This document shows, one piece after another, positions 5,764 to 19,438 of a stretch of 25,367 nucleotides of DNA. A program made the translations under genes and the position numbers. This stretch comes from a virus. The DNA is taken from positions 1 through 25,367 of IMG/VR virus record IMGVR_UViG_3300008259_000450; one strand, given 5' to 3'. Under the pieces are notes generated by a model. It was not told the DNA's origin. It saw nothing but the letters and a program-made list of their open reading frames with translations, and did no database searches. Within the stretch, counting starts at the first letter, position 1. Every line of letters begins with the position of its first letter.

Positions 5764-8115
5764 TCAATCCCTGAACATGCGCCGGAACCTTGCCGGCCCT
5801 ATGCCAAGCAATCCCGCTCCAGCAAATCCCGCAGCCGCTCCAGCCGCGCCAAACACTCGATCACGCCAACGCTGCATCACTGCTTGCGCTGCCTTGCGCG
5901 CATCCTCCGCATCCTTTGCAGCCTTGGCGCTGGATTTGAAGGCGTCGTCAACGGCCTGCATTTCCGTGACCAACCGCCCGTAGTCAGCGTCGCTCACTAA
6001 TTGCGCCCGACGCAAACGATCAATGGCCGGGCGAACCGCAGCAACCGTTTCTCCAGGGGCAGCGCGCTCAATATCAATTTGCGCAGTGCGTAAGTCGTTT
6101 TGAAGTTTGCGAGCGGTTTCTGGCTCTTGAGCGATCCGTTGCCGTTCTCTTGTCAGACGAGTTTCGGCTTCACGCGCGCGCTGCGATGAGGCGCGAGCAA
6201 TATCCTCGGCAGTTTCAAGACCGCTTACCGCAGCCTGCTGGCGGCTTTTCGCCGCAGAAATCAATGAGCGACTAGGTGCTGCGCGCATTTGCGCCGCCTC
6301 AATACCACGCACCGAAGCACGTGCTTCACGCACCGCAGTCTCGGCATTTTCCATGGCAGTTTGAGCGGTGCGACGCGCTGACCGGATATTGGAAAACTCG
6401 TCATACAAACCGAGTGAACGCAATGGGCGTTCGTTGGCCCGTAAAAACGCGCCTAATTGATCGACTGATGGAACGCGCCCCGCGCCGAACAATTCGCGGT
6501 TGAAGTACATTCTGGCAGCATTAACCAACTCAGGATCACGTGCGATTAACGCCTCAAACACGGGATAACCGCCGCGTGCCTTTGTCAGCATTTCGCCAAC
6601 AACATCAGCCGCAGACATCAATTCATTCTGCGTCCGAACGTCGCGGGAGAAAAGGCGACGCAAGGCGCCGCCAACTTGCATTTGTCGAAAATCAGCCGGT
6701 GAAGAAAGCCGCGCAAATGTTTCCAGGGCTTCCCCGTAAGGGCGATGCGCTTTAGTGGCAGCGTCCTTCACCATATCTGTGATTTTACTGATATGATGGA
6801 TAGCCGCCGCCGCATCACCCATCTGACCATTCTCGAACGTGATGCGTTTTGTTGACAAAATGCGATTCAAATACTTTCGCAAGCTGTCAGCCGCCTCCAC
6901 GCTCAAAGCGCGCATTGGCTCCTCTGCGCCTTCCTCCATGGTGGTCAACTGCTGACGGATGGCACGCAATGATGCAGCAATGGAAGGGTCACGTGTTTGC
7001 CGCAACGTCTGGTCAATGTACGCTTCAATTTGTGTGGTCGGAACAATCGGGTCAGCACCAGCACTAGCTATTGCTTTACCAAAGCCCGCCGAGCGTTCAC
7101 GCGCCTTTTCAAACTTTTCATTTAAGTCCCGAACAGTGCGGCGCAAACGATCACCAAAATCTGCTGCATCTTGCCCAGGGCGCGACAAAAACTCATTTTG
7201 CAAACGCTCTATCTCATTGGAAATACGCAGCTTTCTATCTTCTGCCGCAGCAATGCGCTCCAACGCTTCCGCCTTTGCCGACTCAACACTCTTGCCGGCA
7301 GCGCGCGCTTCTGCTTCAGCGGCGGCAACATCATCCTGCAAACGCCGCGTAACACGCCTACGCAATTCCTGAACCTCGGTTGGGTCCAACGCACGGTTTT
7401 GCGCACGCGCTTGAGCAACAGCATCACGCTCGGCAATTTGCTGCAACGCACTATCAATTTCGCTCAAACGCTTTTGTGCCGCAGCAGCCTGCGCTTGTGT
7501 TTGCTCGACGGTTTCAGTTATGCGGCCACTTGCCTCACGTTCAAGTCTAGCCGCACGCGCTTCAGCTTCCGACACAGAACGCTTTGCGGCTTCTTCCGCG
7601 CGGGTTACGGCACCAGTTGCTCTTGGCAGTCGAGATATAAGAGAAGGCAAACCAATACCAGTAGCCAATTCACCGGTAGTGCCCGCAAGTCCGGCCACTT
7701 CAGGGCTGGCGCCGGCACGCAATGCGCCTTGCTCGGCTGCTGCTCCAGCGGCGCCCGCTGTTGCGCCCAAAGCTGCACTAGACGAACGAGGGATGCGAGG
7801 TGCAGCCTCTGTCAAAATTTTACCCGCCGCCCTTACTGGCGCAAACGGCACCAACTGCATTCCACGCCCCAACATCCCTGCTGCTTCAGGCGCGAAAAAT
7901 CCCATAATACCGCCCTCAGTTGGGCGTCGAGTAAATGACTCAGTAAATGATTTGGCATCTTCAGCAGCCCTGCGTGCGCGCGGGCTTGGCCCGCCAGCGG
8001 GTTGCCGTTCTGGTCGCGCCTCTGGTGCCGGGGTTGTTGAAACAACGCCCCAATCATCTTGAGCCTGATTGGCTCGTGCTGGAGTGGTTTCTACAACGTC
8101 CCATTCGCTCGCCAT
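5764..8115 (-). CDS. Large coiled-coil ejection-type virion protein
   Basis: 783 aa, Ala-, Arg- and Glu-rich. The N-terminus carries a tandem motif: EWDVVETTPA (4-13) and DDWGVVSTTPA (20-30). Residues 65-170 are Gly/Ala-rich with weak hydrophobic stretches. Long coiled coils occupy about 165-330 and 580-750. The C-terminus is a Gly/Ala-rich hydrophobic segment (AAGAAAGFAGAGLLGIGPA) before a basic end. Podoviruses carry large helical proteins inside the head that are injected to form a channel (P22 gp7/16/20, T7 gp14-16); length, composition and place after the tail genes suggest that role. No lytic transglycosylase motif is visible. The ATG overlaps the previous stop as TAATG. Confidence 0.65.
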   Translation of the reverse strand: MASEWDVVETTPARANQAQDDWGVVSTTPAPEARPERQPAGGPSPRARRAAEDAKSFTESFTRRPTEGGIMGFFAPEAAGMLGRGMQLVPFAPVRAAGKILTEAAPRIPRSSSAALGATAGAAGAAAEQGALRAGASPEVAGLAGTTGELATGIGLPSLISRLPRATGAVTRAEEAAKRSVSEAEARAARLEREASGRITETVEQTQAQAAAAQKRLSEIDSALQQIAERDAVAQARAQNRALDPTEVQELRRRVTRRLQDDVAAAEAEARAAGKSVESAKAEALERIAAAEDRKLRISNEIERLQNEFLSRPGQDAADFGDRLRRTVRDLNEKFEKARERSAGFGKAIASAGADPIVPTTQIEAYIDQTLRQTRDPSIAASLRAIRQQLTTMEEGAEEPMRALSVEAADSLRKYLNRILSTKRITFENGQMGDAAAAIHHISKITDMVKDAATKAHRPYGEALETFARLSSPADFRQMQVGGALRRLFSRDVRTQNELMSAADVVGEMLTKARGGYPVFEALIARDPELVNAARMYFNRELFGAGRVPSVDQLGAFLRANERPLRSLGLYDEFSNIRSARRTAQTAMENAETAVREARASVRGIEAAQMRAAPSRSLISAAKSRQQAAVSGLETAEDIARASSQRAREAETRLTRERQRIAQEPETARKLQNDLRTAQIDIERAAPGETVAAVRPAIDRLRRAQLVSDADYGRLVTEMQAVDDAFKSSAKAAKDAEDARKAAQAVMQRWRDRVFGAAGAAAGFAGAGLLGIGPARFRRMFRD

Positions 8116-9878
8116 TATTCAACCCTCACAGGGGAACCATTTTGAATGCGCCACCTTTGCCCGTTACGGAAAGTGCGTTCTTGCCCCTCATTCATACCTT
8201 CAAAGGCAGACGCCGGCGGTTGAGAGGTTTGAGACTGCGAAGTCGGCGGTGCAGCAGGAGCCGGTTGCCCGCGTTCCGGCGGCATTAGACCACCCGACCT
8301 CACATACTCGCGCGCCTTGTCATTTACTGTTGCTTTGATTTGAGCAAGGCGATCATAGGAAATGCCATAACGGCGCATGGCCGCAATGTCATCATCCGCA
8401 AGACGCTGATAAACGGCTGGCGCAGATTCGGGAGTCAAGCCTTCAAGGCCAATAACACCCTTCTGCAAATTTAATTCTGTCACCAACATGCGACTGCCAC
8501 CTGACGCGGCAAGTGCGCGAGCGTTAATAACGTCAACCGCCAACTTTGCAATCTGACGCGCTTTTGTTACCGCATCTGCTGGCCCTTCTATTGTCTGATT
8601 ATCAATCGACGAACCAAACAACGAACTCACAAATGAACCAAAATTGGAACCCTGTTCATTCCCGCCATAACGTGACGGGTCCAAAATTTCCAAACGCCGA
8701 ATAATTCTTGAAGCCAAACCCGCTGCTTGTGGATTGCGGCGCACTTCCTCCGCCAAACGGCTACTTAATTCCGCTGACTCAATACGCGACGTAACTGCTG
8801 GAATTTCTCGCGTTCCCAGGTTTTCCACTTCTTCCGGGGTCATGTAATCTTCAAGCAATCGGATTTGACCACGAACGTCAGCGCGTTGCCGCGCCATAGT
8901 GGCACCACCCGGCGTTGTCGCTGATCGTGGCGGTGGCGCCTCAACTGCTTGTCCATTTTGCATCAACAGTGAACCATCCCGCTGCGCGTAATAATAGCGT
9001 GTGGTTCCATCTGCTTGACGTTGAGGCACTACAATCGGAGCCTGATTACCAACTTGGCCGCGATAACGCTCAAGCTGCATGTTGGTGTTTTGAAGGCTCT
9101 GCAAGAAACTCAACATCCCTTGCATACCTTGGCGCGAAGCCGCCGCACCAGCGATAGAAACACCATAACGCGCAGCAACCTCACGCGCACGCGCAATCCC
9201 GGCATCCATGTCAGTCTTAGCTAGATCAAGCGCGTCCTTGAACTCACGCTCTAACGCTTGGTTCTGCGCCTGCACACGCCGCATTTCGACATCAAAATTC
9301 TGCCTCTCACGGTTGTAAAGGTCCGACCTACCCTGACGCCAACCCTGCAACATGCCGCTCATGGCGTTCATCGCGCCGACGGCAGACCGCTTACCCGCAG
9401 TGCCGGTCATCGCCGCCGTCACACCCAACAAACCAAACAGGGTGCCGATAGACAGGGCGTTTTCTTGCGTCGGCACAAAGTCAGGCGTCTGCACATAACG
9501 CTCGCGCATACGCGCCAATTCTTGCCGCTGCGTTGCGGCATAACCCTCACGCGCCTCGCGTTCACCGCGTGCCAAAGCTAGGTCGCGTTGCGCGGCTGCT
9601 CCGCCCGTGCCGTCACGCTGCATACGCTGCAACAACTCGTACTGCGCCTCGGCCCCTGCCCGCATACTTTCGGGCAACTGCTCTACCGCAGCCGCAATGG
9701 TTGGGTCGCTAATGCGTGACTGACGCGGGGGCCTTGGCGTTGGTGCTGACGGCACGCGTTCAGACGGAGGCACGCGAAACTCTGGCGGCACACCGGCTGT
9801 CCTTGCGGCACGCGCCTGATATTCAGTGTCGAGGTCCGCTAGATTGTCTTCAACCGGAGCGTTTAAAACTTCAACCAT
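8115..9878 (-). CDS. Ejection-type virion protein with hydrophobic segment
   Basis: 587 aa. Residues 1-60 are Pro/Arg-rich and probably disordered (RVPPSERVPSAPTPRPPRQS). Residues 60-140 are helical. A hydrophobic stretch at about 143-165 (ALSIGTLFGLLGVTAAMTG) could insert in a membrane. Coiled coil follows (about 185-235, FDVEMRRVQAQNQALEREFK). The C-terminal 100 residues are Pro/Gln-rich and end in GQRWRIQNGSPVRVE, a small beta element common at the end of phage structural proteins. ATG at 9878 has GAGGT upstream. It lies between two other large Ala-rich proteins, as expected for a set of injected core proteins. The family is not named; the role is inferred. Confidence 0.62.
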   Translation of the reverse strand: MVEVLNAPVEDNLADLDTEYQARAARTAGVPPEFRVPPSERVPSAPTPRPPRQSRISDPTIAAAVEQLPESMRAGAEAQYELLQRMQRDGTGGAAAQRDLALARGEREAREGYAATQRQELARMRERYVQTPDFVPTQENALSIGTLFGLLGVTAAMTGTAGKRSAVGAMNAMSGMLQGWRQGRSDLYNRERQNFDVEMRRVQAQNQALEREFKDALDLAKTDMDAGIARAREVAARYGVSIAGAAASRQGMQGMLSFLQSLQNTNMQLERYRGQVGNQAPIVVPQRQADGTTRYYYAQRDGSLLMQNGQAVEAPPPRSATTPGGATMARQRADVRGQIRLLEDYMTPEEVENLGTREIPAVTSRIESAELSSRLAEEVRRNPQAAGLASRIIRRLEILDPSRYGGNEQGSNFGSFVSSLFGSSIDNQTIEGPADAVTKARQIAKLAVDVINARALAASGGSRMLVTELNLQKGVIGLEGLTPESAPAVYQRLADDDIAAMRRYGISYDRLAQIKATVNDKAREYVRSGGLMPPERGQPAPAAPPTSQSQTSQPPASAFEGMNEGQERTFRNGQRWRIQNGSPVRVE

Positions 9879-9881
9879 GAC

Positions 9882-10913
9882 TTACCTCGCTTGTGTCGCC
9901 GCCGACATGCTTGAAACAACCGGGCCAGCTAAAGTGTTGGCAAGGTTAGTGAAGAAGTTTGTGCTCGCCTGATTCAGCGCCTGATCCGCCTGCATCCCGG
10001 TCTGGATAGCGCCACGCATGTACTGATCACCAATGTTGGCAACACGCAAGCCAAGGTTCATCTGGTTAGTCAGAAGCTGTGAGCGCAACCGCTCCAGGGT
10101 TGCCGTTGCCTGCACAACCCCGACGCCACCCGTGCGGGACGCCTGTTGAGCAATCCTAGCCTGCGCCGCTTGATAGGCTTGAGCAGAAGCGGGCGACAAC
10201 TCACCGCGCTTTGCTTGATCCATAAGGGTGCGGCCCTCTTGCTGATACGGAGCCGCCATAGCCGCTAAATCTTGCCGGGTACGCTTTGCTGCACCAGCAC
10301 CGCGCATTTGCATCAAACCACCAAGACCAGCGCCGCCAAGGCCCAAGCCTAAACGTGCGAGCGTTGCCGGGTCTTGAAGCTGCTTGCCAAGGCTAGTCGT
10401 TAGACGATCCACAAAACCGCGCTGTGGGCCGGCTTCCTGCCGCGCAGTCTCTATTTCGCCTGGAGTCAGGTCGGGATAAGCCGGGGCAGGCCCACGGAAC
10501 TCCGCCGGAGTAATTGGCATTTGACCGCCAGGACCAGCCGCAGGCGCCGACAGAAAATCTACCCCAGGTTGAAATGACGCTTCACCACCGCCGCCAGGAA
10601 CTAATTCCTGAGTAAATGCGCCTTCGCTATACACAGGGCTTGTGTAAGCATCATAACTTGATCCTGCGTCAAATGCCTGGGCCGGGGCTTCAGCAAAGGA
10701 CGCAAAATCCAACTCCTCGAACTCGGGCAAGCCCGTGTCAGGATTGGTTGTGCCGCTACCACCTTGCTGCTTGAGCATACGCGCTTCACGCGGGGTGATG
10801 TGCGCAAGCACCGTGTCTCTCCCTCGGCCCCGAGAGCGCAAGATTTGAGCCATCGCCTTGAGGTCAAGGTCGCCCATGGCATCAGTGCGTAGAACCTTGG
10901 AGAGAATTTCCAT
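9882..10913 (-). CDS. Ejection-type protein with 'HITP-EA-GGSGT-TGLPEF' motif
   Basis: 343 aa, starting MEILSKVLRTDAMGDLDLKA. Residues 29-65 contain GRGRDTVLAHITPREARMLK and GGSGTTNPDTGLPEF, a conserved block I have seen in many phage virion proteins. A disordered acidic and aromatic stretch with FTQELVP (100-106) follows. A Gly-rich hydrophobic patch (about 195-215) and long helices with Ala/Gln (AQAYQAAQARIAQQASR) lead to the C-terminus. It resembles the smaller of the P22-type ejection proteins in size. ATG at 10913 overlaps the stop of the next upstream gene (TGATG) and has AGGA 8 nt before it; the longer in-frame start at 10961 lies inside that gene. Confidence 0.62.
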   Translation of the reverse strand: MEILSKVLRTDAMGDLDLKAMAQILRSRGRGRDTVLAHITPREARMLKQQGGSGTTNPDTGLPEFEELDFASFAEAPAQAFDAGSSYDAYTSPVYSEGAFTQELVPGGGGEASFQPGVDFLSAPAAGPGGQMPITPAEFRGPAPAYPDLTPGEIETARQEAGPQRGFVDRLTTSLGKQLQDPATLARLGLGLGGAGLGGLMQMRGAGAAKRTRQDLAAMAAPYQQEGRTLMDQAKRGELSPASAQAYQAAQARIAQQASRTGGVGVVQATATLERLRSQLLTNQMNLGLRVANIGDQYMRGAIQTGMQADQALNQASTNFFTNLANTLAGPVVSSMSAATQAR

Positions 10914-12559
10914 CACAGCAATCCTAGAGCATCGGCAAGCCGTAGCGTTGCCTCGTTCCAAACCTGATTCTTATTACCAAACCTCGACAGGATTACGCCA
11001 GAAGTCGCAGGGTCGAGGCCGGCAGACAATACGGGCTGCGACGCCGCCTGACGCTGGACCGTGGGCGCAATGCGCGGATCGGTGACAATCGGGCTGATGC
11101 GCACTTGCTCCTCGCGGCGCCTACCGGGCGGTTGGGTAACATCCCGCCTGCCTGTAGTCTCGCCACCGCCAGTAGTACCGCCTGTCGTGCTTGTGCTGGT
11201 TGACGTTCCGCCGCCCGCTTCGGCACCTCCGCCGCCTCCGCCACCACCACCGCCAGAACCACCGCCCTGCCCGAAAGAGGTAAGGGTAGTGCCAGGACCA
11301 GAGGTCGCGCCAATGAGTGTAGTATTTCCAAAGCCTGTGCCGGCCATACCAGTACCAGTACCTGTGCCCGTGCCTGTTCCGGTAACGCCTGTGCCTGTGC
11401 CTGTACCAGTGCCGGTAACGCCTGTGCCCGTACCAATAGTGCCAGTGCTGGTAACGCCCGTTTTATCGCCGCCAAAAGTTGTCAGCACATTGTCGCCCGT
11501 TGCGGTCTTGTCACCGCCAAATGGCAACAAACCCGTCGTTTCTAGTATCGCTCTGTCGGCTTCTGTGACGCCACCGGCACCGAAAGGCACAACTGTTTTG
11601 CTGCCGCCCACACCTTGCTCGGCGCCAAATGTGAACAAGTCGCGCAAAACATTAGCAGACTCAGAAGCGCCACGTTCATATTCTGCCGCACCAGCGCCCT
11701 CATCCGGCACAATCTCTTGCGTAAATGTTCCGCTTTTGGGGGTAGTCTCATAATCACCAATAACTTCAACATCTTGGTCGCCGCCAAACTCGCCAGCACC
11801 CTCATCAATTTGACCCGGACCGCCATTACCGCCAATTTCGGCGCTCAAAGGCGTAGTCAAGTATTGTGCGGCGTTAAAACGCGCTGCGGCTGCGGCGTCA
11901 CCAGCCGACGCGCCAGCAATCATGTTGTTCAAAGTTTGCTCTGGCGAGGCGCCCGCTGCCATTTCGCCGGTCCAATACGCCAAACCAGCGGCTTCGGGAG
12001 GGCGCCCAAACAATGCTTGGTAAGCGTTTTCCACAAACTGTTCGTTGGAAACAGGTTGCCCGCTAGCAGTGCCTGCCAAAGCGCCGGCGAGTTGGCCACG
12101 CTCTTGTGCGTTCAACGCCTGCGCACCAGTTGGCGCAGCAGTACCAGTACCAAAAAGAGTGTTGGCAAGATCAGTTACATACGGTCTAGCAATGGAACCA
12201 ACCAAACCAGAACCAGCCCCGGTCAACGCGCCAGTGGCAACATCACCGCCGGTCACAGCCGCCGAACCGCCACCCGCCAAAGCACCGCCAACAGTGCCGG
12301 CCACAATGTTGCGCGTGTCACCAGCCGCTACGCCAGAATAATTCAAACCGGCTGTGACCAAAGGCGTCGCAGCGCCAGTAATAGCGCCAACCGCTGCCCA
12401 CTCGCCAATGTTTTGATCCTGTACGGCAGCGCCGGTTGCGAACGCCGTTCCACCTTTAGACGCTTCGACCACTGCTTTTGTTAGATCGGCATCAACCGAA
12501 CCAGCGACAGTGCTCAAACCCAATTCCGCAGCAAGCTCACCACCAGCACCAGCGCCCAC
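10913..12559 (-). CDS. Gly/Thr-rich ejection-type protein with DUF4214-like domain (main frame)
   Basis: 548 aa from GTG at 12559, but the frame is open without a start back to 12769, and the natural 5' end appears to be the separate frame at 12613-12786. Residues 1-165 are Gly/Ala-rich hydrophobic repeats. Residues 172-222 (EQFVENAYQALFGRPPEAAG, LAYWTGEMAAGAS) look like a DUF4214 domain, known from large secreted and surface proteins. FTQEIVP recurs at 279-285, as in the next gene. Residues 371-408 are Thr-Gly dipeptide repeats and 432-445 a poly-Gly run. The C-terminus is charged and folded-looking (SRFGNKNQVWNEATLRLADA). It probably belongs to the injected core proteins. Confidence 0.6.
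   Translation of the reverse strand: MGAGAGGELAAELGLSTVAGSVDADLTKAVVEASKGGTAFATGAAVQDQNIGEWAAVGAITGAATPLVTAGLNYSGVAAGDTRNIVAGTVGGALAGGGSAAVTGGDVATGALTGAGSGLVGSIARPYVTDLANTLFGTGTAAPTGAQALNAQERGQLAGALAGTASGQPVSNEQFVENAYQALFGRPPEAAGLAYWTGEMAAGASPEQTLNNMIAGASAGDAAAAARFNAAQYLTTPLSAEIGGNGGPGQIDEGAGEFGGDQDVEVIGDYETTPKSGTFTQEIVPDEGAGAAEYERGASESANVLRDLFTFGAEQGVGGSKTVVPFGAGGVTEADRAILETTGLLPFGGDKTATGDNVLTTFGGDKTGVTSTGTIGTGTGVTGTGTGTGTGVTGTGTGTGTGTGMAGTGFGNTTLIGATSGPGTTLTSFGQGGGSGGGGGGGGGGAEAGGGTSTSTSTTGGTTGGGETTGRRDVTQPPGRRREEQVRISPIVTDPRIAPTVQRQAASQPVLSAGLDPATSGVILSRFGNKNQVWNEATLRLADALGLL
11336..11449 (-). repeat. Thr-Gly coding hexanucleotide-like repeats
   Basis: Degenerate six-base units (GGCACA, GGTACT, GGCACG and similar on the coding strand) encode runs of Gly-Thr interrupted by GVT. 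Because the unit is six bases, changes in copy number would keep the frame and simply lengthen or shorten the linker. Confidence 0.75.
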
Positions 12560-12612: not shown

Positions 12613-12786
12613 CTAATATATCATCGCCAACAAGACAGCACTGCCAATAATCGTTGTTGTTGCCGCCGCGCCAGTAAGAGTTGCCCCAACAACCGTGGCA
12701 GCGCCCGCAGCCGCCAAACCGCCAGTAGCTACAGTCGCAACAATCGCAACGCCAATAACGACCGTTTCTTCAACACTGCCGCCCAT
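12613..12786 (-). CDS. 5' part of the Gly/Thr-rich protein gene, frame broken (57 aa)
   Basis: 57 aa, MGGSVEETVVIGVAIVATVA, then Gly/Ala/Thr-rich hydrophobic sequence ending in LLAMIY and TAG at 12615-12613. The ATG overlaps the preceding stop as TAATG, the junction expected for the next gene of the cluster. The same kind of sequence continues without a break in the -1 frame (GDDILEGALTGGAVGALSGG) into the 548-aa protein. A single extra base near 12626 would restore one continuous gene. No classic X-XXY-YYZ slippery site is seen, so an indel mutation or assembly error is more likely than programmed shifting. It could also be a true small hydrophobic protein. Confidence 0.5.
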   Translation of the reverse strand: MGGSVEETVVIGVAIVATVATGGLAAAGAATVVGATLTGAAATTTIIGSAVLLAMIY

Positions 12787-14714: not shown

Positions 14715-15046
14715 TAGGCACCGCCAGGGGCTACAGGCCAATCAATGTTCGCGGGAAAGCCAGATTGCTGTGGAACGTCGCGCAAGGCTTGCCGATATGA
14801 TGCCCACTCAAAATCTAATGGCGCACTAGATTCGGCGGCTTTTGTAACAACCCAATCACTGCTCGTGAGCAGAGCATTTCTTTTTTTCCTAGCTTCCGCT
14901 GCAAGACGATCATTTTCGCCAGCAGCCCAGGCAGCGTCTTCAGCGTCGCGCCGCGCTTCTTCTTCAGGAGTGAAGGGAATGGGACCTTCAGCAGTCATGT
15001 GATGACGAGGCATGTCCTCTAGCTCCTTAACTATTTTTAATGCCAT
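14714..15046 (-). CDS. Tail-assembly chaperone (Phage_tail_APC type)
   Basis: 110 aa. The C-terminal half has the family signature: KKRNALLTSSDWVVTKAAES (about 54-73), then EWASYRQALRDVPQQSGFPA and NIDWP. The N-terminal half is acidic and helical (PFTPEEEARRDAEDAAWAAG). These proteins are found just after fibre genes in many phages and are thought to help fibre folding or attachment. The start overlaps the end of the fibre gene by 20 nt in another frame, so translation is likely coupled. The chaperone role rests on family membership and place. Confidence 0.75.
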   Translation of the reverse strand: MALKIVKELEDMPRHHMTAEGPIPFTPEEEARRDAEDAAWAAGENDRLAAEARKKRNALLTSSDWVVTKAAESSAPLDFEWASYRQALRDVPQQSGFPANIDWPVAPGGA

Positions 15047-16157
15047 AAAGACGGAAAGTGCCAGACACTATATTTCCAGTAGCAGCCAGAAATCGCACGC
15101 CCGTTACTGCGGCAGTGCTATTCCCATAGGTTCCTCCGGCAGCAATAGTACCAGCAGCGTTTGCCGATTGATTTGAAGTTTGAAAACCCGTCGCTGAAAT
15201 GCCTTTTTTAAAATTTGTACCTGATGGATTGTAAACTTTAACTTCAAAACTTTGCCCCGAGTTTACGTTGGCTGCATTAGCATTTGATATTGTTATAAAA
15301 CTACCGCTGCCTGCGGCCCAAACTAAGCTAGAGCTGGCTGAGTCTGTATAAGCATAAGTACCGTTATAACTTGATGTTTGATATGTTCCCCCACTTTTCA
15401 ATCGCACATTAAGTGATGTCGTATTTTCAAGCCTGACGTCCACAGCAATAATTGCATACACATCGTATGTACTATCGAACGTAGTTTCAACACTAACGGT
15501 TGCACTATTGGCGGCAGTGACAGTTGAAAGATAAATCATAGAGCCAGCGCCACCAGCAGCGGCAGTGCTAACCCAAGCAGTACCATTGCTAGATAAAACA
15601 TTGCCGTTTGTTCCTGGCGCAACAAATTGCACTGCGTTAGTGCCATTACCAAGAATTACATTGTTGGCAGTTAAAGAAGTCGCGCCTGTACCGCCTTGAG
15701 CAACAGTGACAGGTGTAGAAAGACTACTAAGCGTTGCATTAGTGAGCGTGAGGTTACCCACCGTTGTCGCAGTGCCACCAATGTTGATCGTTGTATTGCC
15801 AATGGTAACATTGCCTGTAGCCGCTGCCGGAGCCTGACTAACCCAACTTGTGCCATTGCTGGAAAGCACATTGCCATTTGTTCCAGGCGCAACAAACTTA
15901 ACCGCATTGGTCCCATTGCCGAGCACTACGTTTTCTGCCGTCAGAGATGTTGCGCCCGTTCCGCCCTGTGCCGCCGTGATAGGCGTGGACACACTGCTAA
16001 TGGTGACGTTAGCAAGCGTCATGTTGTTCAGCGTGGTGACCGTGTTCCCAAGCTGAATCGCCGTGTTTCCAAGCGTAATGGCCGTCGCAAAGTTGTTGTC
16101 CAACTGCGATAGCGGAATGGCTGTCGTTGCGTTCGCAAACGTATTGGGTACAGGCAT
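15027..16157 (-). CDS. Tail fibre protein with 90-residue duplicated unit
   Basis: 376 aa. The N-terminus MPVPNTFANATTAIPLSQLD-NNF is a virion-attachment type common in podoviral fibres. Two units of exactly 90-residue period follow (about 29-108 and 119-198), each with AQGGTGATSLTA, then VxLGNGTNAVxFVAPGTNG and NVLSSNGTxWVS. The C-terminal domain (about 205-376) is beta-rich with aromatic and Gly residues (STVTAANSATVSVETTFDST, YDVYAIIAVDVRL) and is probably the tip that meets the host surface. The start is 1 nt after the nozzle gene stop. It is followed by its likely chaperone. Host receptor cannot be inferred. Confidence 0.82.
   Translation of the reverse strand: MPVPNTFANATTAIPLSQLDNNFATAITLGNTAIQLGNTVTTLNNMTLANVTISSVSTPITAAQGGTGATSLTAENVVLGNGTNAVKFVAPGTNGNVLSSNGTSWVSQAPAAATGNVTIGNTTINIGGTATTVGNLTLTNATLSSLSTPVTVAQGGTGATSLTANNVILGNGTNAVQFVAPGTNGNVLSSNGTAWVSTAAAGGAGSMIYLSTVTAANSATVSVETTFDSTYDVYAIIAVDVRLENTTSLNVRLKSGGTYQTSSYNGTYAYTDSASSSLVWAAGSGSFITISNANAANVNSGQSFEVKVYNPSGTNFKKGISATGFQTSNQSANAAGTIAAGGTYGNSTAAVTGVRFLAATGNIVSGTFRLYGIKNS
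15564..15803 (-). repeat. Fibre repeat unit, distal copy
   Basis: Codes for residues 119-198 of the fibre. It matches the proximal copy 270 bp away in frame, with many synonymous differences, which indicates an old duplication kept by selection on the protein. Confidence 0.8.
15834..16073 (-). repeat. Fibre repeat unit, proximal copy
   Basis: Codes for residues 29-108 of the fibre, with the AQGGTGATS and VAPGTNGNVLSSNGT cores. It is partner of the copy at 15564-15803. Confidence 0.8.
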
Positions 16158-16158
16158 C

Positions 16159-18120
16159 TTAGAACCTCGCTCTCATTTCGTGTTCCAACTCCAACGTGTG
16201 CAAAACCATGTTCACATCCGTACTGGTAATTGTGAAACCTAGGTATTTTCCATACTGTTGAGCATCTGACTTATACAACTGATACCCCCCAATAATCCAA
16301 CCAATTGTTGCGCTAGAATTATTGGTCCAGGGGATAACGTATCCTGAATTGTTGTACCAAGATATGTTGTTAATCAATGTATAAGGCGGACTTGATTGAT
16401 ATTCGCTATCAACCGTCAACGAAAGGGTAGAAGGCGTGTTTACCGTCGCCTCAACCCCAAACTTCAACGCTTGCTTGTCCCTGATGGGGTCACCCAAGGG
16501 CCATAGGGCGCTCCTGAATGTTACATTCACACCAGCCGCCGTGTTTGCATACAACTTAATAAGGTTTGTGCCGCCCGTGCCGTAAATGGTGGTGACGCCG
16601 CCCACTTGGGCACCAGTAATGTTGGTCAACGTGCCTTGGCTGGTCATAAACCAACGCTTGTTGAAAAACACCGCCTGCACAGGCCGCGCACCCGCTACTG
16701 GATCATTATATGTAAATGACCAACACGCGCACAAGATGTTGTTGATAAGCACCTGACCACCGGAAACAGGCTGCGTAAAATCAATAAGCGGGAAAATGCC
16801 ATCTAGAGCGTCCGACAACTTACTGGTTGTGGAGCCAACGAGGGCATAAATCCCGTACTCGTTCATAAAAACCACGGATCGGAAGTAGGCGTACAAGCCT
16901 TTTTTGAAACTCGTACCTACCGACGCCGACACGTTGGTGTTGGTAAAGACCGTCACCCCGTCCTGCCCAACGCGCACATCCGAGAACACGTTGATGCTAT
17001 CCGCACCAAACACGTACAGAAAGTTGTTTGCTGATAGCAGCGCCACAATGTTCGTGTGCAGCGTCGAGTCGGTAATCAGAATATTGCCGGCGCTAACCGA
17101 GGCAAAGTCCGTGTAACTGTCCGCCGCCGAGTAAAAGACCGTGCGGCCTTGAGACACCCAAGTGCGCCCGCTAAAGGTCGCAACGTCTGTGTTGGCGTTA
17201 GTCGTAACCACTGCCTCGACAATCGCCCCAGAACCCGCGCCAGCCGACACGTTGGCCGTGGGCGCCGAGGTGTAGCCCGAGCCGTTATTGGTCATGATGA
17301 CCTTAGTCACGGAACCGCCCGACACAATCGCCGTGCCCGCCGCGTTGGCCCCGCCGCCACCCGAGAACGTCACCGCGAACGAACTGGTGTACCCAGTGCC
17401 ACCGCTTTTCACGATGCAACTCACGGTGCCCGTCGCAAAGGTCAGGCTGGACGCAATGGCCGCAGCGTTAGCGCCACCACCGCCGCTGATCGTAATAGTA
17501 GGCGGAGAGGTGTAACCAGAACCCGTTTCAGTGATGTTGATGCCGACAACGGTATTGGCCAGCACCACCGCAGACCCGGTTGCCTGCACCCCGCCCGTTT
17601 CGTTGGGCGCACTAAAAGACACCGAGGGCGTTGAGGTATAACCAGACCCCACATCGGTCATGCCATAGTCCGACACCGAGCCAATGCTAACTACGTTTGT
17701 GCCATCCCAGTTGAACAGTCCCTTGGACGGGTCAATAATCAGGATGCGCTCATTCTTCCACTGCGCAATACGCACGCCAGCCGCAGAAAACTTGCCCGAG
17801 TTGGCAACCGTGACCTTAGTCCCGTCGGTTGCGTTGTAAGCCTCCGCCCCGCCATTAGTGAAAAACGCAAAGATGTACTCTTTGTTGTTCACATTGGCGT
17901 CGTACAACGACTCAACAGTACCACTCCACACCAAGTTTGCGCTGGACACCTGGACGGTAGTTTGAGCCGGCACAGTTTTGACGTTGCCGTAACCGATAGG
18001 CTGTGCGTTCTCAAGCCAAGCGAACTCGTCCGAATCAATAGCCGTGCGGTTAGCTTGAGTATTTATCCCCTTAAAATTCTTGGAGATATGATACTGTTTG
18101 CGCTGCTCCGGCGACGCCAT
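16159..18120 (-). CDS. Tail nozzle / stabilisation protein with inserted GSGYTS repeats
   Basis: 653 aa. The N-terminus (QYHISKNFKGINTQANRTAI, EFAWLENAQP) and the beta-propeller-like body with many short strands (WKNERILIIDPSKGLFNWDG, NFLYVFGADSINVF, YFRSVVFMNEYGIYALVGST) match podoviral tail hub or 'stabilisation' proteins, equivalent in role to P22 gp10 and T7 gp12. Residues about 150-305 contain four repeats with G(S/T)GYTS at 158, 200, 241 and 280, usually followed by a Gly-rich turn (SGGGGANAA). This looks like an inserted domain. The C-terminal 60 residues (GYQLYKSDAQQYGKYLGFTI) complete the propeller-like domain. The protein would form the tail tube end below the adaptor. ATG overlaps the preceding stop as TGATG. 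Confidence 0.8.
   Translation of the reverse strand: MASPEQRKQYHISKNFKGINTQANRTAIDSDEFAWLENAQPIGYGNVKTVPAQTTVQVSSANLVWSGTVESLYDANVNNKEYIFAFFTNGGAEAYNATDGTKVTVANSGKFSAAGVRIAQWKNERILIIDPSKGLFNWDGTNVVSIGSVSDYGMTDVGSGYTSTPSVSFSAPNETGGVQATGSAVVLANTVVGINITETGSGYTSPPTITISGGGGANAAAIASSLTFATGTVSCIVKSGGTGYTSSFAVTFSGGGGANAAGTAIVSGGSVTKVIMTNNGSGYTSAPTANVSAGAGSGAIVEAVVTTNANTDVATFSGRTWVSQGRTVFYSAADSYTDFASVSAGNILITDSTLHTNIVALLSANNFLYVFGADSINVFSDVRVGQDGVTVFTNTNVSASVGTSFKKGLYAYFRSVVFMNEYGIYALVGSTTSKLSDALDGIFPLIDFTQPVSGGQVLINNILCACWSFTYNDPVAGARPVQAVFFNKRWFMTSQGTLTNITGAQVGGVTTIYGTGGTNLIKLYANTAAGVNVTFRSALWPLGDPIRDKQALKFGVEATVNTPSTLSLTVDSEYQSSPPYTLINNISWYNNSGYVIPWTNNSSATIGWIIGGYQLYKSDAQQYGKYLGFTITSTDVNMVLHTLELEHEMRARF
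17206..17673 (-). repeat. Four GSGYTS-type repeats inside the nozzle gene
   Basis: Codes for residues about 150-305. Each unit of roughly 40 residues has G(S/T)GYTS(x)P, a strand, a Gly/Ala-rich turn and a second strand. The DNA here looks richer in G+C than the flanking nozzle sequence, which would fit later insertion of the domain. Confidence 0.75.
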
Positions 18121-18797
18121 CAGAACACCCGCTTATATGACAAAAGAGCCGCTAAATTTCTCAGTCGGTCCGCAGAGGATAACTCAAATCCCAGGTCGCC
18201 ACCAAGAAAAGGCACTGCGCGTTGATAAGCGGCATATAGATAAGGGTCGGGCTGTCCACCCGTTTTACTGATGCCGCCAGAAAATTGCCCGCCAGCAACC
18301 GGCAAATTCAAATTCAATCCATAAGTCGGGGCAAATTGCATGGCGCCTTGAGCGTCCGGGGTTGCAACCCCTTGATAACCCGCGTTCAAGCTAAGAGGCC
18401 CATAACCCAAATTGAGCGCAGGACGAACAACTGTGCTGCCAGCGCGCGAAGGGTCTTGTTGCGCCATTAACTGAGCGCCTAACCGAAAATTTTCGTCTAA
18501 CGGAGCGCCAACACCTAACATCAGTCTATATAAGTTGTCTTCCCCTGGGGCATAGGGCCGCTCCACCGCAGTAAATTGACCACTAACAGGACCACCGCCA
18601 ACAGGAACAGTAAAAGCCTCTTCAGGGGCGCGGCCTTTCTGTAGTTGCATTAACCGCAACATTTCAGTGTCTAAATCAAACCCTGCACTCGGTGTCGAGG
18701 CTGGTTGATCAAACACCTCAGTAGAATTGGACTGACTTTGTACGTCATCCGTTGGAGGGTCATCAAACCCAAATGTGGATTTATATGACTCGCTCAT
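18120..18797 (-). CDS. Beta-barrel-like virion protein, unknown
   Basis: 225 aa, not recognised. Residues 1-65 are acidic, Ser/Pro/Asp-rich and probably disordered (FGFDDPPTDDVQSQ). Residues 70-225 show about eight to ten amphipathic strands with tight Gly/Pro/Asp turns: NFRLGAQLMAQ, TVVRPALNLGY, GPLSLNAGYQG, QFAPTYGLNLNLP, GQFSGGISKTG, PYLYAAYQRAVP, GDLGFELSSA, and NLAALLSYKRVF with a C-terminal Phe. This alternation and final aromatic residue resemble outer-membrane beta-barrels, but there is no signal peptide. It lies between adaptor and nozzle genes, so it is probably a virion or injected protein. The start at 18797 is 2 nt after the adaptor stop. Confidence 0.6.
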   Translation of the reverse strand: MSESYKSTFGFDDPPTDDVQSQSNSTEVFDQPASTPSAGFDLDTEMLRLMQLQKGRAPEEAFTVPVGGGPVSGQFTAVERPYAPGEDNLYRLMLGVGAPLDENFRLGAQLMAQQDPSRAGSTVVRPALNLGYGPLSLNAGYQGVATPDAQGAMQFAPTYGLNLNLPVAGGQFSGGISKTGGQPDPYLYAAYQRAVPFLGGDLGFELSSADRLRNLAALLSYKRVF

Positions 18798-18799
18798 AA

Positions 18800-19438
18800 T
18801 TAGTACGCCTGACTATACGGGGTCGGCATCCGGCGCGTCATCGTGCCAACAAGCACGCTCTGCACCTTCTTCATGTATTGCTGATTGAAAATCTCCGCCT
18901 CGCCATACGACTGCTCTTTGAACTTGGCCGTATAACACGCATAAAACGCAACAGGCGAAGTCCAAATATCAGGAATGGTATCGGTGTCCGTAGCGTTTAC
19001 CAACGCCGTCGGCTCAATCACCGTGTCTAATTCCATCGTGTAAACTTCATCCGGCACAGGGCCAAGATAAAAGGTCTGTGGCCCGTACATGCTGTAAGCG
19101 ACAGGGCGACCATAGTAATTCTGCCAATAACGCAACTGCGCATTGAAGTCCGTCCACGGCAAATAGCGGAGCGGAATGCGCGTGCTACCCCAATAGAGAT
19201 TAAGGTTAATAATATCCATCGTTTGGTCACCCTGAGGCAGTGATGCAAACGTGTATGTCTCTTGATTGGTTACCGTGGCGCTAGTCTGGATCGTACGCAA
19301 GCACCCGGTATCACGCACCAGCTTGTTACGCGCGTCGTTGATGTAATCCGTTAATTCCTGATCCGACCAGAAATTAGCGTTTGCGTCATGCAGTAACCGC
19401 CGGCACTGCGTGATGTACTGCGCTAATGTAACAGCCAT
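18800..19438 (-). CDS. Head-tail adaptor (connector) protein
   Basis: 212 aa. The N-terminal helices MAVTLAQYITQCRRLLHDAN, FWSDQELTDYINDARNKLVR and DTGCLR match the small adaptor or 'tail tubular A'-type proteins that dock under the portal of podoviruses. The middle is beta-rich (NQETYTFASLPQGDQTMDII, YGPQTFYLGPVPDEVYTMEL), and the C-terminal helices (AFYACYTAKFKEQSYGEAEI) end in a flexible TRRMPTPYSQAY. Such proteins form a dodecameric ring between portal and nozzle. The place two genes before the nozzle gene supports the call. Confidence 0.75.
   Translation of the reverse strand: MAVTLAQYITQCRRLLHDANANFWSDQELTDYINDARNKLVRDTGCLRTIQTSATVTNQETYTFASLPQGDQTMDIINLNLYWGSTRIPLRYLPWTDFNAQLRYWQNYYGRPVAYSMYGPQTFYLGPVPDEVYTMELDTVIEPTALVNATDTDTIPDIWTSPVAFYACYTAKFKEQSYGEAEIFNQQYMKKVQSVLVGTMTRRMPTPYSQAY

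Follow-up and report, generated by a model that had tools for sequence, protein, structure and literature searches.

The window, that is, the whole 25,367-base stretch of DNA analysed here, is a virus record of the short-tailed-phage type in which a gene with no known relatives, hereafter the accessory gene, lies between the genes for an SU10-type adaptor and a nozzle-like virion protein (Table 1). The preliminary description had treated this open reading frame as a genuine gene placed among tail genes, and both statements hold. The frame is intact and its codon use fits that of the window's genes (score relative to the other genes 0.10 in its own frame, compared to between -0.24 and -0.67 in the five alternatives), and the adjoining adaptor is readily assigned to its family (PF24175, E 3e-20). 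The accessory gene starts 2 nt past the adaptor stop, and its own TGA overlaps the ATG of the nozzle-like gene by 1 nt (TGATG). Because the gene is so tightly coupled on both sides, late co-expression with the tail proteins would be expected.

Table 1. Features of the accessory-gene locus and of its encoded protein
Feature	Position in window	Strand	Basis or remark
Portal		minus	PF23899
Major head protein		minus	phrog_9953
SU10-type adaptor, 212 aa, upstream neighbour of the accessory gene	18800..19438	minus	PF24175, E 3.2e-20; phrog_399, E 1.6e-16
Accessory gene, 225 aa, without known relatives	18120..18797	minus	ORF; codon use; absence from 77/82 records (best 80 of 215 adaptor loci included)
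Residues 1-64, acidic (12 D/E, 4 K/R; pI 4.05), without signal peptide	18606..18797	minus	Composition; AlphaFold
Residues 72-178, putative beta-meander core	18264..18584	minus	Grammar strands, AlphaFold strands, beta moments; low to moderate confidence
Residues 182-225, disputed C-terminal part	18123..18254	minus	Strands by grammar, helices by AlphaFold; 182-201 like SU10-type adaptor helix motif
Nozzle-like virion protein, 653 aa, downstream neighbour of the accessory gene	16159..18120	minus	Identity by position
Tail-fibre-like protein, 376 aa	15027..16157	minus	Tip allele at residues 190-376

The downstream neighbour is called a tail nozzle by virtue of its gene position; it has no match in Pfam, nor in the PDB even when a 15-sequence profile is used. 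Its residues ~150-320 form a Gly-rich SGYTSxP repeat region, the source of most of its PHROG matches, which are to very large virion proteins. The homologue in MW202753.1 (L098, positions 9314-11302) bears the GenBank label ‘baseplate wedge initiator’, which is probably a misnomer taken from the repeats.

The accessory protein contains neither Cys nor Trp and, as had been pointed out, ends in Phe (SYKRVF). The reported lack of a signal peptide was likewise borne out: hydrophobicity is low throughout residues 1-70, where the highest 12-residue Kyte-Doolittle mean is 0.26 (compared to 2.57 in OmpX and 2.24 in OmpW), and the stop-to-stop frame, with just 5 more residues upstream of the start, is too short to supply one. 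The acidic N-terminal segment is probably disordered, with a helix predicted at residues 42-53. Third-position GC is 0.434 in the accessory gene and 0.624 and 0.644 in its two neighbours, which agrees with a foreign origin; this is a weak sign, because other genes of the window are low as well (0.398 in the fibre gene).

No homologue of the accessory protein was found in Pfam, PHROGs, NCBIfam, PADLOC and the PDB sequences, in GTDB contigs, or in 35 whole records of relatives, and no sequence match to an outer-membrane protein (OMP) was obtained in Pfam, NCBIfam or the PDB. Searches of INPHARED and PLSDB by tblastn gave no match below E 1. IMG/VR was searched with exact peptide patterns (the whole protein and three segments), by which close relatives alone are detectable, and the only matches were four near-identical contigs and the locus L095. 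The latter was rejected as a relative, the match being an 18-residue Gly-rich stretch inside an unrelated tail-like protein.

The distribution of the gene was assessed in 82 records, namely the window, the best 80 of 215 IMG/VR adaptor loci (retrieved with the adaptor as bait), and one more carrier contig with an incomplete adaptor; repeat loci from a contig already included had been removed before this count. Within this set, which thus includes the best 80 of 215 loci, the gene is carried by five records (the window and the four near-identical contigs), and the distance from adaptor stop to nozzle start is 679 nt in carriers and -2 to 5 nt in all 77 non-carriers, every one of which has the nozzle-like gene adjoining the adaptor. 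The insertion is precise, with a net length of 677 bp, and the junction is exact, reading TAA-TC-ATGGCG in non-carriers and TAA-TT-ATGAGC...TTCTGATGGCG in carriers. The accessory gene is likewise missing from MW202753.1 and MW202825.1, two complete relatives in GenBank that originate from Manatee Spring and in which the nozzle-like gene directly adjoins the adaptor gene. Each of the remaining four carrier contigs belongs to a data set of its own, distinct from that of the window, and is 99.3-100% identical in DNA to the window, with zero base differences among carriers inside the accessory gene. Since the same junctions recur in these four data sets, they are not an assembly slip; at such DNA identity, the carriers must also be counted as one phage and not as independent witnesses.

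Close non-carriers bear on the age of the insertion. Among the best 80 of 215 loci, the adaptor is at least 84% identical to that of the window in 12 non-carriers, and 99-100% identical in nine of them. The DNA on the two sides of the site is 96.9% and 93.7% identical in one close non-carrier (L013), and 93.1% and 99.1% in another (L014). Such high identity on both flanks indicates a recent insertion, and because all more distant records are without the gene, a gain is simpler than repeated loss. Judged from these comparisons, the accessory gene was most likely gained recently in this lineage, as one unit. Its presence or absence at one locus (5/82 versus 77/82 records, with the best 80 of 215 loci included) and its clean absence from near-identical relatives, together with its being a single self-contained unit flanked by conserved genes on both sides, are features of moron-like phage genes; it is unlike these in being tightly coupled to both neighbours and in having no known product family.

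With 77 of the 82 records (best 80 of 215 loci included) and two complete genomes lacking the accessory gene, it is not needed for assembly or DNA entry in this phage group, provided that these records represent viable phages. A role as a core DNA-entry pore is unlikely on the same comparison and was rejected as an explanation. This corrects the notion of the gene as the group's DNA-entry part, and phages that are nearly identical but differ in having or lacking this gene at the site form a natural knock-out pair.

The preliminary description had read eight to ten alternating strands in the protein, and had proposed either a barrel inserted into the outer membrane from outside during DNA entry or an elongated virion beta structure. 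The strand pattern was scored with a grammar of alternating outer-membrane strands, with hand-set scores, relative to composition-keeping shuffles. The accessory protein reached z 3.7 (3.4 in another run, in which 3/2000 shuffles were as good), compared to 3.7 for OmpX, 4.8 for OmpA, 3.2 for OmpW, 4.5 for OmpT, 3.1 for the usher ElfC, 1.3 for OmpF, and 0.2 for NfrA. Values did not exceed 2.4 in the 58 of 63 E. coli proteins that are neither labelled as OMPs nor the channel CusC, or 1.3 in 22 other window proteins, and among 317 ORFs from the phage group the accessory gene ranked first. The score also catches beta-rich virion proteins, since a tail-fibre-like ORF in a related locus (L029) reaches 3.4. 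Plain alternation (lag-2 minus lag-1) was not above chance for the accessory protein (z 0.3, with 371/1000 shuffles as high; OmpX 2.7, OmpA 2.8, OmpW 1.1). A count of amphipathic windows was dropped as a test because it did not separate known OMPs, OmpX scoring no better than its own shuffles.

The grammar parse finds ten strands, and the loops between them, of 12, 4, 10, 2, 9, 2, 8, 2, and 6 residues, alternate perfectly between long and short in the phase of OMPs (p 0.008; none of 103 shuffles with at least seven strands at p 0.02). With the penalty set differently, the alternation was not significant in any of four cases (p 0.60, 0.60, 0.06, and 0.80), and among five OMP controls it was seen in OmpX only, being absent in the other four. 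Beta moments are high at residues 103-113, 135-142, 152-165, and 198-207 but fall almost to zero at residues 185-195 (0.06) and 213-225 (0.08), which places the last strand among the weakest. An outer-membrane barrel needs its C-terminal strand, and the BAM beta-signal consists of an aromatic last residue and a hydrophobic residue at -3; the accessory protein has the terminal Phe but Arg at -3, and it also lacks the N-terminal signal peptide of a BAM substrate. The alternating pattern is upheld by the grammar score, and not by plain alternation or by the beta moments of these two segments.

Structure prediction gave a similarly divided picture. AlphaFold, run on the single sequence, returned a mean pLDDT of 47 for the whole protein and 52 for residues 66-225, and this low-confidence model has a five-strand meander at residues 104-179 followed by helices at 185-199 and 208-220 (pLDDT about 29 to 46 past residue 185). 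The count of eight to ten strands was not borne out, as residues 185-195 and 213-225 do not alternate and the model, at low confidence, has helices there. Fold matches to a capping protein, avidin, and levivirus coat proteins were rejected as not significant for a model of such low confidence, by which the absence of other folds is uninformative as well; the OprF barrel (4rlc; Z 5.3, rmsd 6.1, 85 residues aligned) appeared in the same search beside many unrelated rows. Taken together, sequence pattern and model make a beta-meander core likely and leave a closed outer-membrane barrel unproven.

The segment at residues 182-201 fits a consensus helix found in the SU10-type adaptors of other phages, and when a profile of seven independent phage adaptors was applied to it, 1/2000 shuffles scored as high. 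Weak phmmer matches of the accessory protein were obtained at five loci (L114, L120, L122, L123, and L125; E 0.24, with thousands of ORFs looked through); the two that were scanned are SU10-type adaptors, and the other three look alike by eye. Short as they are, and at E 0.24, these matches were kept as a lead only and not as homologues. The SU10_adaptor profile (PF24175) gave no match to the accessory protein up to E 10.

The fibre tip encoded at 15030-15590 on the minus strand (phrog_14820) is identical in two carrier contigs, the only ones that reach the fibre, and its next relative among the IMG/VR loci fetched is 49% identical. None of the 12 close non-carrier loci matches the tip and eight match the fibre N-terminus, several of these contigs stopping before the tip. 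The shared tip may hint at a receptor-linked function of the accessory gene, which descent of one phage explains equally well. The fibre-like gene also contains two copies of a sequence of at least 241 bases (15568-15808 and 15838-16078, minus strand), 69.7% identical and about 270 bases apart.

Small accessory virion proteins near the tail are known from podophages, for example gp6.7 and gp7.3 of T7. The reading we prefer, with slightly less than even confidence, is that the accessory protein is a signal-less virion add-on located on or in the neck or tail, and a host- or receptor-related modifier, not a core DNA-entry part. The gene, late and dispensable, would be a recent gain that entered in one piece between those for the adaptor and the nozzle-like protein. 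In its product, a flexible, acidic N-terminal part would precede a core folded as a beta meander, and the C-terminus would consist of either more strands or helices; the protein would be made late with the tail proteins, as the gene coupling suggests, and attached to the virion neck or tail, a location and role that we infer. Of the two possibilities raised beforehand, the virion beta structure would lie closer to this reading than the DNA-entry barrel, which is weakened by the absence of the gene from 77/82 records (best 80 of 215 loci included) and two complete relatives and by the poor C-terminal strand.

It is unlikely that the protein is an unremarkable soluble beta protein with an unrelated function, its OMP look owing partly to chance in a Gly/Leu/Ala-rich composition; the negative plain-alternation test and a low-confidence structure with no significant fold match agree with it, but the grammar score is significant against composition-keeping shuffles (3/2000). 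An insert within a structural operon can also encode a non-virion protein, and a late intracellular accessory protein, acting in assembly or at or after lysis (for example as a receptor shield that gets into the periplasm by way of holin lesions), would suit a dispensable one-gene insertion without signal peptide. A link to the receptor would also fit the company that the gene keeps in the carriers, a fibre tip for which the fetched loci contain no relative closer than 49% identity; however, the carriers are one phage, for which descent alone predicts the linkage, and we consider the intracellular reading unlikely. A remodelled or chimeric adaptor relative, in which residues 182-225 would be a pair of adaptor-type helices that docks in the neck and is preceded by a beta domain, draws on the match at 182-201 (1/2000 shuffles against the seven-adaptor profile), the two AlphaFold helices, and the adjoining adaptor gene. 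The match is only 20 residues long, however, and was found among thousands of ORFs (E 0.24), the Pfam profile does not detect it at E 10, and the motif is missing from the adaptor of the window itself, so this origin is very unlikely.

An outer-membrane-type barrel of about ten strands, which would get to the membrane without Sec, being carried in the virion and either inserted from outside or released into the periplasm and assembled by the host's BAM, is quite unlikely. Its grammar score, terminal Phe, and short and long loops in one parse (p 0.008 at one setting) recall the small barrels OmpX, OmpW, and OmpT. The loop alternation holds at that one penalty setting and in OmpX alone of five OMP controls, residues 185-195 and 213-225 do not alternate, plain alternation is at chance, and a tail-fibre-like protein scores as high. 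Relative to these barrels, the accessory protein also has no signal peptide, a poor last strand, a non-hydrophobic -3 residue (Arg), an acidic 64-residue leader, and no sequence match, and its gene is missing from most relatives. More specifically, a signal-less barrel carried in the virion, freed into the host periplasm, and installed there by BAM or by itself, which would shield the receptor or widen the entry channel, is highly improbable. In the literature covered, partly in excerpt, we found no description of a signal-less beta-barrel virion protein, though one may still be in print.

The podophage outer-membrane pores T7 gp14 and DEV gp73 would share the task of the accessory protein if the original proposal were right, but most members of the phage group do without the accessory gene, and the accessible text on DEV gp73 describes a helical pore (PMC10925440), a further point against a barrel. 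If it turned out to form a membrane barrel, the accessory protein would give the helical outer-membrane pores known from podophages an equivalent built from beta strands; if it proved to be a virion component, it would illustrate the way in which a conserved tail takes on an extra part. For SU10, the accessible text of the source (PMC9509320) gives gp11 as adaptor, gp17 as nozzle, and gp12-13 and gp16 as fibres. The window resembles SU10 in having the same adaptor family next door and a nozzle-like protein after the adaptor, and differs in the accessory protein, for which that text names no SU10 counterpart.

Two further observations concern other parts of the window. The minus strand at 10913-12559 encodes a large protein that is rich in Gly and Thr and contains a DUF4214 domain (E 1.4e-10). 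At about position 12636 of the window, one carrier contig (L100, positions 6289-6363) is longer than the window by about 73 bases.
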